From assembly GCA_013330975.1 (NCBI GenBank), contig DUHG01000167.1:1273-13212 (forward strand): 11,940 bases of DNA, given 5' to 3'. The notes below the pieces were generated by a model. It made no database searches and was not told the DNA's origin. It saw only the letters and a program-made list of their open reading frames with translations. The DNA comes from Candidatus Bathyarchaeota archaeon. GTDB taxonomy: Archaea; Thermoproteota; Bathyarchaeia; Bathyarchaeales; Bathycorpusculaceae. This document shows positions 304-4,533 of the stretch, piece after piece. Numbering within the stretch: the stretch's first letter is position 1; each line of letters opens with the position of its first letter. Position numbers and translations under genes: made by a program.

Positions 304-719
304 TAATCAATTGTGAGAGTAATTTTGACTTTTTGTGCTGGATCTTTGAGTTTTTCAAGAAGGCGTTCAGAGATATCTTTTGCTGCCTTGTCCGCGCCTA
401 TAGCGAGAGTTCTGCTGCATACATAACTGCTCTTTCTGATAACCATGTCCCTTTCATGCGTAAGAATAAGACGTGAAGATCCAAGTGCATTGACTGTTTC
501 TGAAAAATTGCCAGCCTCAATGAGAATTGTCAATCTTGCGTTATCATTTGCCAAACTCTTCTTGAATGCACTGTTCAAGTCTGCAACTGCCCTGTCGGTA
601 CCGACCACAATTATGCAGTCGCCCATTTTTGAAAGATGCCCGTCCTTTGTGAATTCAAGCGTCGTTTTGTGCGTTGCTTGAACGTTTACGTGCCCATGAC
701 CAAAAACAACTTCACTCAA
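300..719 (-). CDS. DUF371 family conserved archaeal protein
   Basis: A 139-residue protein recognised as DUF371, a conserved archaeal family of unknown function. The family signature is visible: an N-terminal GHGHVNVQATHKTTLEFTK segment with closely spaced histidines, then GDCIIVVGTDRAVADL, and a later ILTHERDMVIRKSS strand with a basic alternating pattern. I chose the TTG at 719 because it overlaps the upstream gene's TGA as TTGA, a classic coupled start, and gives MSEVVFGHGHVN, which matches the usual short lead before the GH.NV motif. A TTG at 731 would add four residues. No signal peptide or membrane segment is visible, so it is probably cytosolic. Coupling to the upstream regulator suggests co-expression. 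The histidine-rich start could bind metal, but that is speculation. Confidence 0.8.
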   Translation of the reverse strand: MSEVVFGHGHVNVQATHKTTLEFTKDGHLSKMGDCIIVVGTDRAVADLNSAFKKSLANDNARLTILIEAGNFSETVNALGSSRLILTHERDMVIRKSSYVCSRTLAIGADKAAKDISERLLEKLKDPAQKVKITLTIDY

Positions 720-1702
720 GCCAATTTGCAATATTGTTCTGAAACCTCTATCGAATCTACTTTTCCATCTCCATCGAGGTCATAGCCATGTATGATTGCA
801 GCAAATGTTGCACCGTCGCAGTAGCTCTTTAAAGTCTTGTCATGAAAGTTAGTTAATGCCAGTACACAAGCTTTGGTTCCAACAGCTTTGTTCCCTGCCA
901 CAACGATGATGCGCTTGCTTTGATCCCATGGGTTAGGCATCTTCGCGACTATTCCTATTGTATCGGCCGTGTAGACGCGCGATGATTCCTGCGAAACCAA
1001 GCCACCGAGGAGAAAGCCATTCTCAGAAGGTTGCATGTTGAACCTAACCGGCAGATGTTCATTTATCTCCTGCGTCAGAAGATTGGTTCCTGGACCGCCG
1101 ACGAGTATGAGGTTGTTCTTTTCTTCTTTTTCGGCCTTCACGTCCGTGTCCAGCTTGATCGCAAACTCGATGGGATTCTTTATGAATTGCCCCATGAACA
1201 AAGTTAGAGCAGCAGCATAGTGACCATCTCTCGCACTCGTTTTGAATGGGCCGTGAGGCGCTGGGCATCCCACAACAACTTTGCCTTCAAGAAACCCATT
1301 TTCGTTGATGAATTCTCGAAAGAATCCTTGCAGCGGTTTGTTTGCCGAGAGAAATGATGTTCTTCTTTTCCCAAGATCCTTATATCCGTCTGCAAACTCG
1401 AAGCCAAAAGCAGATGCAACCGTCCTATAGTACTTCGCTATAGCCCCCTTTTTGTTCTCTTCCTTCTCAACGGTGATAGCCCCTGCTTTCGCCAATCTTC
1501 GGACATGATAGTAGACCAGCTGCTCGTGAACTCCGATATGCCTGCTGAGTTCTAACGGATACATAGCCTCCTCAGAAAGAGCCTTCAATATTTCTAGACT
1601 CGTCTTGCTCAGGGTCATTTTGAGTTTCTGAGAATCCATCATATGGATTGTTTTGGCTTTCTGACTCTTTCCGTCATCCTCTAGCAGAAGCTTGTTGGTC
1701 AA
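716..1702 (-). CDS. winged-helix regulator with S-layer-like domain and EF-hand loop
   Basis: About 328 residues. Roughly residues 30-90 form an ArsR-like winged helix (SLEILKALSEE, then LELSRHIGVHEQLVYYHVRRL as turn and recognition helix, then a wing rich in K and E). The remainder resembles the C-terminal region of archaeal S-layer-type proteins: VGGPGTN near residue 201, a YTADTIGIVAKMPNPW segment, and a VVAGNKAVGTKACVLAL segment. It ends in a perfect calcium-loop pattern, D308-x-D310-x-D312-G-x-V-D316-x-x-E319. No signal peptide or membrane helix is seen, so it should act in the cytoplasm as a transcription regulator. Start choice: TTG at 1702 has a strong Shine-Dalgarno (GAGGAG, 1709-1714) six bases upstream and a TATA box at 1733-1741. 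The ATG at 1729 would lie upstream of the expected transcript start. It is coupled to the DUF371 gene and divergent from glmS. The ligand is unknown. Confidence 0.75.
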   Translation of the reverse strand: MTNKLLLEDDGKSQKAKTIHMMDSQKLKMTLSKTSLEILKALSEEAMYPLELSRHIGVHEQLVYYHVRRLAKAGAITVEKEENKKGAIAKYYRTVASAFGFEFADGYKDLGKRRTSFLSANKPLQGFFREFINENGFLEGKVVVGCPAPHGPFKTSARDGHYAAALTLFMGQFIKNPIEFAIKLDTDVKAEKEEKNNLILVGGPGTNLLTQEINEHLPVRFNMQPSENGFLLGGLVSQESSRVYTADTIGIVAKMPNPWDQSKRIIVVAGNKAVGTKACVLALTNFHDKTLKSYCDGATFAAIIHGYDLDGDGKVDSIEVSEQYCKLA

Positions 1703-1732
1703 GTGACTCTCCTCGAAAACAAGCGGCATCCT

Positions 1733-3813: not shown

Positions 3814-4533
3814 GTGGTGTTTGTTCTGGAAAAGAATGACTGGGAAAAACTCATTGATAATCTGATTAAACAAGGCATACTCCGCAACCCCAAAGTCATC
3901 AGCAGCATGCGTATAGTCCCTCGAAGCAAGTTTCTTTCTTCTAACTCAAAGTCGTACAGTGCAGTAGATACTCCGCTTCCAATTGGCTTCGGGCAAACCA
4001 TCTCTGCGCCACATGGTCTCAGCTCGTCCTGAACCAGACGAAACATGGTTTGCATAATGAACGAAGCCCTTCAATTGGAAGTTGGTCACAAAGTACTAGA
4101 AGTAGGCGGAGGATCCGGCTGGCATGCTGCGACGATAGCGGAGACAGTAGCGCCCAAAGGTTCGCCGAGAAGTGAGTGGGGTCACGTTTACACTCTGGAA
4201 ATTGTCCAAGCGCTAGGAGAAAACGCTAGGAGAAATATCATAAATGCTGGTTACGGTGATCGTGTCACAATTGCAGTCGGTGATGGTTCCAAGGGATATC
4301 CTGAGAAGGCCCCTTATGATCGTGTTGTTGTAACTGCGGCTGCTCCAAACGTGCCCAAACCCTTGGTCGAGCAGCTAAAACAGGATGGAATAATGCTAAT
4401 ACCCGTGGGTAGCGTTTCGATGTTTCAAACGCTAGTTAAAATAACAAAGGGAACGGATGGGAAGATTAGGGAAGAGAACCTGGGCGGAGTCGCTTTTGTG
4501 CCCCTGACAGGCGAGTTTGGACACAGGTTTTAG
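3814..4533 (+). CDS. pcm: protein-L-isoaspartate O-methyltransferase, interrupted by 30 bases with in-frame TGA
   Basis: The enzyme methylates isoaspartyl residues in aged proteins with SAM, allowing their repair. The first part (GTG 3814 to TGA 4030-4032) holds the Pcm N-terminus: VPRSKFL, then VDTPLPIGFGQTISAPH. The second part (ATG 4045 to TAG 4533, same frame) resumes at MVCIMNEALQL, then the SAM motif VLEVGGGSG (residues 84-92 of the joined protein) and DRVVVTAAAPNVPKPL, ending in FVPLTGEFG. The family reads QTISAPHMV without a break, so 30 bases appear to be inserted between His and Met. Removing them gives an intact 229-residue protein of normal size. All other motifs look conserved, unlike a decaying pseudogene. 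Possible explanations are a small archaeal intron, a true nonsense insertion, reinitiation at 4045, or an assembly error. The gene ends one base before the convergent fen stop. Confidence 0.85.
3993..4053 (+). other. candidate relaxed bulge-helix-bulge RNA structure around the insertion
   Basis: GCAAACCAT (3993-4001) and ATGGTTTGC (4045-4053) are perfect nine-base complements flanking the insertion. Inside, TCTG (4003-4006) pairs with CAGA (4035-4038), giving a four-pair central helix. An inner hairpin pairs 4016-4017 plus 4019-4022 with 4029-4034 around a six-base loop. This leaves a 5' bulge at 4007-4015 and a 3' bulge at 4039-4044, each containing one edge of the insertion. The order matches the archaeal splicing-endonuclease substrate, but the bulges are 9 and 6 bases rather than the canonical 3, and the inner helix has a bulged C4018. 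Confidence 0.4.
4015..4044 (+). other. 30-base intron-like insertion in pcm
   Basis: The extra bases separate the codons for the conserved Ala-Pro-His and Met-Val of Pcm and contain TGA at 4030-4032. The edges are ambiguous: removing 4013-4042, 4014-4043 or 4015-4044 all restore Ala-Pro-His-Met-Val in frame. A seven-base repeat, ACATGGT, occurs at 4011-4017 and 4043-4049, offset by 32 bases, so recombination between the repeats would not restore the frame. No similarity to a known mobile element is seen. Confidence 0.6.

Follow-up and report, generated by a model that had tools for sequence, protein, structure and literature searches.

An interrupted pcm gene

What are the 30 bases which, with an in-frame stop codon among them, divide a pcm gene into two open reading frames? 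The window, by which we mean the whole stretch of 11,940 nucleotides that was analysed, is bathyarchaeal DNA. Its two pcm frames, 3814-4032 (+) and then 4045-4533 (+), share one reading frame, and the first is closed by a TGA at 4030-4032. The Pfam PCMT profile finds positions 4-60 in the first frame and 61-208 in the second, hence the domain is complete once the two are joined, and removal of the 30 bases leaves a protein of 229 residues. The initial annotation had described pcm as split by a 30-base insert carrying an in-frame TGA, with a joined product of this length, and both statements are borne out. The interruption falls in a SAPHMV motif, and an alignment of P0008, a full-length relative, with the solved enzyme 1jg1 runs through it. 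The features that we annotate at this locus are as follows.

3814..4012 (+): pcm exon 1; Pfam PCMT 4-60; purifying selection, no stop in 35 tested codons
4006 (+): outer closing G, paired with C4044; G-C in 101/101 distinct loci
4007..4010 (+): 5′ strand (CGCC) of the central helix, in exon 1, partner 4037-4040; structure rule and covariation
4011..4013 (+): 5′ bulge A-C/A, predicted cut 4012/4013; BHB rule and bulge types
4013..4042 (+): predicted BHB intron, 30 nt; sole placement restoring His between Pro and Met; orthologous inserts aligned, n=101
4014..4036 (+): intron hairpin, TGGT c TCAG (CTCGTC) CTGA ACCA; BHB rule, minimum-energy folds and covariation
4037..4040 (+): 3′ strand (GACG here) of the central helix; pairs with CGCC save for one C.A mismatch
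4041..4043 (+): 3′ bulge A-A/A, predicted cut 4042/4043; BHB rule
4043..4533 (+): pcm exon 2, AC (the remainder of His) and then ATG GTT; Pfam PCMT 61-208

Exon 1 ends in ...GQTISAP followed by a C, the first base of the split His codon. Its GTG start is given as called, and a start a few codons further on is possible. Gene callers begin the exon 2 protein at the ATG at 4045. The initial placement of the insert at 4015-4044 is replaced by 4013-4042, on the BHB rule and the comparison of 101 loci, while its length of 30 nt and the restored Pro-His-Met-Val both stand. No tRNA was found in the window.

The insert recurs in one codon

Comparison with relatives, which had been proposed as a check, shows that the insert is variable: of 231 pcm loci, with the window included, 162 have one, always inside the same His codon. 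These 231 entries come from two overlapping genome sets and the window, and consist of 162 interrupted loci, 66 continuous loci and three that were set apart. After identical stretches are collapsed, 101 distinct interrupted sequences (the window among them) and 49 distinct continuous ones are left. In the class of genome G001 a pcm match was found in 211 of 256 genomes, and 149 of these, the rest having weaker matches, supplied 150 classified loci, of which 100 are interrupted and 50 continuous. A scan of representative genomes yielded 192 loci, and the best 80 of them comprise 63 interrupted and 17 continuous. The classifier alone returned 99/49 and 62/17 for the two sets; the difference is due to the restoration by hand of the three loci that stand outside the counts of 162 and 66. 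Two of these, L026 and L104, are one sequence; their insert, again in this codon, is cut by a contig end and was read by eye. The third (L151) is uninterrupted and reads SAPQ.

Could an intact copy of the gene be present elsewhere? Each of the ten genomes searched, seven of them interrupted, has one strong pcm match, with an additional weak match in one, and no intact spare copy was seen in these ten. Some genomes of the G001 class list a second pcm match, and G116 has two strong matches, both interrupted. One scan of viral contigs found no relative. The stops flagged in exon 2 of three genomes (G005, G081 and G082) appear to be the normal C-terminal ones, as a stop near residue 161 is also seen in the related loci L047, L027 and L057.

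In all 162 loci the insert can be placed in exactly one way such that a His is restored between Pro and Met and the ATG is preceded by two bases of exon 2. These two bases are AC in 101/101 distinct loci, and the ATG is present in all 101. The length of the insert ranges from 21 to 48 nt, with 31 nt the commonest (38/101), followed by 30 nt (18) and 32 nt (17), and 21-22 nt in seven. Divided by three, these lengths leave a remainder of 0 in 28 distinct loci, 1 in 46 and 2 in 27. The argument made initially from a length that is a multiple of three thus fails and, as the lengths are variable and most often 31 nt, the frame-preserving 30 nt of the window is a coincidence. Read through without splicing, exon 1 reaches a stop before the ATG in 79 of the 101. 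The codon that then follows Pro is His in 62 of the 101, Leu in 26, Gln in 11 and Arg in 2; in the 39 that are not His, the motif residue therefore exists only after splicing.

A conserved structure spans the junctions

In the interrupted loci, the exon 1 sequence CGCC or CACC lies directly 5′ of a bulge, and GGCG or GGTG lies directly 5′ of a second bulge in 99/101 distinct loci, the other two being the window and L193 with GACG. All four central pairs form in 160 of the 162 loci, with CACC/GGTG counted. The bulges are 3 nt long, of the forms NCN and NNA, and cuts placed by the BHB rule rejoin C and AC as His, in frame, in 101/101. Hairpin pairing occurs in 92-100% of distinct loci at positions 1-6 from the base and in 62-71% at positions 7-9. 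The outer helix between the exons has one invariant G-C pair (101/101) and is imperfect beyond it; this pair, G4006-C4044 in the window, gives no covariation because it never varies.

The rule by which loci were found used the rejoined His and not the pairing. The named structure pairs in 94.4% of the cells of the 101-row alignment, against 80.7% in shuffles, which ignore relatedness, and pairing falls to 21.9-40.2% when the partner is slid by 1-3 columns. The covariation score is 0.478 versus 0.198, and 221 cells are changed on both sides versus 77.8 in shuffles. In 500 shuffles, four of the five measures were never reached; less striking is the fifth, which counts the pairs that show any two-sided change (8 versus 6.7, reached in 33/500). 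Such changes are found in all seven intron stem pairs, for example the first, which over 100 distinct rows is U-A in 47, C-G in 40 and G-C in 11. RNAalifold, run unguided, returned 10 of the 12 named pairs.

One weak point is the window's own copy. Its central helix has three of four pairs and one C.A mismatch, a single base that could be a sequencing error, and its 3-nt bulges presuppose that this mismatched helix forms. Folded freely, the window keeps the intron hairpin, the stem of which reappears in minimum-energy folds that take in the flanks; of the four central pairs only two form, and the exons pair with each other in a long helix instead. Taken by itself, the explicit BHB structure comes to -3.1 kcal/mol, and the best fold to -20.2 kcal/mol.

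Codon use and selection

The second base of the central helix comes from the Ala codon of the motif. This codon is GCG in 98 and GCA in 3 of the 101 distinct interrupted loci, and the three GCA loci have a matching U in the central helix. GCG accounts for 18 of 48 in the continuous loci, where one further locus has Glu, and the other Ala codons of the interrupted genes are spread over all four. The third base of the neighbouring Pro codon falls in the bulge; here CCA or CCT is used in 101/101 interrupted loci and in 23 of 38 Pro codons in continuous ones. Comparisons of this kind do not depend on the alignment but ignore relatedness, and on these codon counts the Ala and Pro codons that feed the motif appear frozen in interrupted genes and free in the others.

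Over 78 close pairs, exon 1 has pN 0.059 and pS 0.361 and exon 2 has pN 0.051 and pS 0.371, which indicates purifying selection on both. In none of the 101 distinct loci does a stop occur among the 35 codons of exon 1 that were tested. When exon 1 is read in its shifted frames, pN exceeds pS (first 60 sequences), and stops occur in 78 and 73 of the 101.

A predicted archaeal intron and its alternatives

We conclude that the 30 bases are very probably an archaeal BHB intron in the pcm pre-mRNA, a prediction drawn from sequence comparison. The initial annotation had left three options open, a removed intron, a nonsense insertion and a consensus error. Comparison strongly favours the first and contradicts the other two, since recurrence at one codon in 162/231 loci is not expected of an error or a one-off mutation. 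An error of sequencing or assembly in the window is the least probable reading of all, given that many independent assemblies carry the same type of insert; for the same reason the same-codon inserts are not an accident of assembly. A pseudogene or nonsense insertion would account for the in-frame stop of the window and for the read-through stops that precede the ATG in 79/101 loci, and is nevertheless very improbable: position and grammar are constant over 101 distinct sequences, and the purifying selection on both exons, with no stop in the 35 exon 1 codons, contradicts the decay of disrupted relatives that had been named as possible counter-evidence.

What if the two halves are proteins in their own right? 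A split gene, its halves translated separately into two subunits, with an ATG of its own for the second, and the hairpin serving as a separator or as an aid to re-initiation, would agree with the conservation of the exon 2 ATG in 101/101 aligned loci, where gene callers also begin. It is an unlikely reading, if the best of the alternatives, as it leaves aside the restoration of His by the BHB cut sites in 101/101 loci, the unspliced exon 1 that lacks the motif His in 39/101, the exon 1 codons frozen to suit a helix, and the continuous pcm of many relatives (66/231 loci). Programmed translational bypassing, in which the ribosome hops over the hairpin, is about as improbable as a pseudogene. The window does have ACATGGT on either side of the insert (4011-4017 and 4043-4049), resembling take-off and landing sites, but these repeats are spaced by 32 and so do not fit the frame of a 30-nt gap. 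Among loci, both the length and the flanking codons differ, and bypassing predicts neither the CGCC/GGCG pairing nor two 3-nt bulges nor a frozen Ala codon. An origin of the gap by clean loss of one repeat copy (32 nt) was also considered and is ruled out, being out of frame.

How might the predicted intron be removed? In the folded pcm transcript, the CGCC at the end of exon 1 would pair with a stretch close to the intron's 3′ end, giving two 3-nt bulges on opposite strands that flank a 4-bp helix, above the intron hairpin. In each bulge the tRNA splicing endonuclease EndA would cut between the second and third bases, and the exons would then be joined by a ligase, probably RtcB. This would restore the His codon from C and AC inside QTISAP-H-MV and so give the full-length Pcm; active enzyme would be made from spliced mRNA only. 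Inserts of 21-48 nt are too short to hold a group I or II ribozyme core. Transcription and translation share one compartment in archaea, and the pcm message would therefore have to be spliced before ribosomes meet the stop.

Genes for EndA are present in all 40 genomes of relatives examined (31 interrupted, 9 not), with two copies in 32. RtcB is present in 37 of the 40 and was not found in the other three, all interrupted, which may be incomplete genomes. Heterotetrameric EndA has been linked to broader substrates in the accessible text of PMC12397907 and PMC2738675, although the former also cites a heterotetramer of constrained specificity. Two copies would fit the heterotetrameric type.

Distribution and history of the insert

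The 101 distinct loci were used to build a covariance model, which matches 48 of 398 genomes sampled across the phylum at E 0.01 or better, after filters that lose weak matches. Five of the 48 are 35-nt matches of E 0.002-0.005 to uninterrupted loci (L257, L258, L259, L083 of G124 and L125 of G141). Eight lie outside the class of G001, six of them interrupted and two continuous. A second class has the interrupted pcm in five of the seven genomes sampled, and a third class has it in the only one; the introns in these classes are 23-34 nt long, with CACC/GGTG or CGCC/GGCG. In a deep group (L213, L216, L219, L220, L222, L225, L230 and L260) the pcm introns measure only 21-22 nt, a length that must be near the minimum able to hold a BHB motif.

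The gene tree of 159 rows is short and poorly resolved (70 of 156 inner branches open) and implies at least 14 changes of state, three of them forced by strongly supported branches. Such a tree cannot tell gain from loss, and early gain with repeated loss is the simplest reading.

The intron is also seen on contigs labelled Njordarchaeum (L059) and Wukongarchaeum (L075), both of which were kept among the 101. Mis-binning is probable, because L059 groups with a G001-class locus, in a genome that has two matches to the intron model, and L075 falls among bathyarchaeal loci.

Comparison with cbf5 and other archaeal introns

Is pcm alone in being interrupted in this way? A flag raised in a search, rather than any design of ours, pointed to cbf5. 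A search with TruB_N matched 22 of 26 genomes. Among 20 cbf5 loci, 18 (L268 and L270-L286) have an insert of 17-76 nt at the Asp codon of HGGTLDP, which we take to be the catalytic residue, and two (L267 and L269) are continuous. With the best of up to 11 cut placements taken for each locus, all 18 share one placement, 4/4 central pairs and the cut geometry of pcm, and 16 have at least three unbroken stem pairs. These BHB-like cbf5 inserts serve as a positive control for the reading of pcm.

The helix arrangement predicted for the pcm insert is that of archaeal tRNA introns, in which a 4-bp helix, flanked by two 3-nt bulges, joins the 5′ exon to the intron's 3′ end; the host of the pcm intron is an mRNA instead. 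The accessible text of PMC2738675 gives tRNA introns as 11-175 nt and cites Watanabe 2002 on cbf5, the archaeal gene with a proven intron in its coding region. The crenarchaeal cbf5 intron disrupts the codon of the catalytic residue, according to the same text. The pcm intron is similar to that of Desulfurococcales and Sulfolobales cbf5 (16-44 bp there) in being short, in lying in a coding exon, in disrupting a conserved active-site codon and, on the simplest reading, in its loss from some lineages. Both are BHB-like; the cbf5 intron is cut by EndA, and the cutting of the pcm intron is predicted. The differences, as far as that text goes, are in the gene and in the taxonomic range, which is Bathyarchaeia and two further classes for pcm. 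Furthermore, the pcm motif is near-canonical in 99/101, whereas nearly all of the newly predicted cbf5 motifs are there called unconventional. Our results now place predicted cbf5 introns beyond the orders given in that portion of the paper.

The Haloferax HVO_1309 intron (PMC7714728, accessible text) is likewise a BHB in an mRNA, cut by the splicing endonuclease; it lies in a 5′ UTR and the pcm intron within coding sequence. Putative 12-bp introns of an archaeal virus, cited in the available part of PMC2738675, are also small frame-preserving inserts in coding sequence. A 2016 review (PMC4810243) knows introns in archaeal coding mRNAs from cbf5 only, and in 2020 cbf5 was the only other mRNA case beside the new leader intron (PMC7714728), both according to the portions available. 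Our literature searches, which covered few subscription papers and these sources in part, found no report of a pcm intron.

Implications and further observations

The pcm insert would be a second, deeply conserved coding-sequence case beside cbf5, predicted from sequence, and offers about 100 natural variants of one substrate with which to study how an intron is kept, resized and lost. It also raises a testable puzzle, the timing of pcm splicing relative to translation in one compartment. One speculative idea, which we consider doubtful, is that pcm and cbf5 belong to a small, ancient set of Thermoproteota mRNA introns, long kept in active-site codons because splicing by the tRNA machinery gates enzyme production, so that the state of tRNA processing would bear on both protein repair and RNA modification.

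The results are also of importance for protein databases. Of the 120 database proteins that match the second half best, 117 could be assigned, 78 as exon 2 only, 38 as full length and one as a late start. The 78 start at or near the junction Met; P0077 was removed from this tally (79 to 78) as it is continuous and starts 23 residues upstream of the junction. It is 100% identical to P0095, and both are uninterrupted. With 78/117 of the best matches reduced to exon 2, many bathyarchaeal Pcm records are therefore probably without their first 60-70 residues. When 117 full-length database proteins were compared with the interrupted loci, no match reached 90% even in exon 2 (best 88.3%), and so no spliced form was found among these proteins. 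Three pairs of one full-length and one exon-2-only protein (P0133/P0087, P0049/P0111 and P0028/P0029) have exon 2 identities of 95.7-96.9% and may reflect intron-free strains or spliced RNA.

A loose BHB scan over 800 kb (L287-L326) of an 868,956-base chromosome (G127 C1) gave 66 candidates, with incomplete decoy controls, and no claim of extra mRNA introns is based on it. The scan recovered the pcm intron at 428864-428894 (-), and among eight candidates inspected by eye only pcm looked like one gene on both sides. Finally, elsewhere in the window, at 716-1729 (-), matches to HTH_20 and S_layer_C lie in one frame, which is an odd combination.
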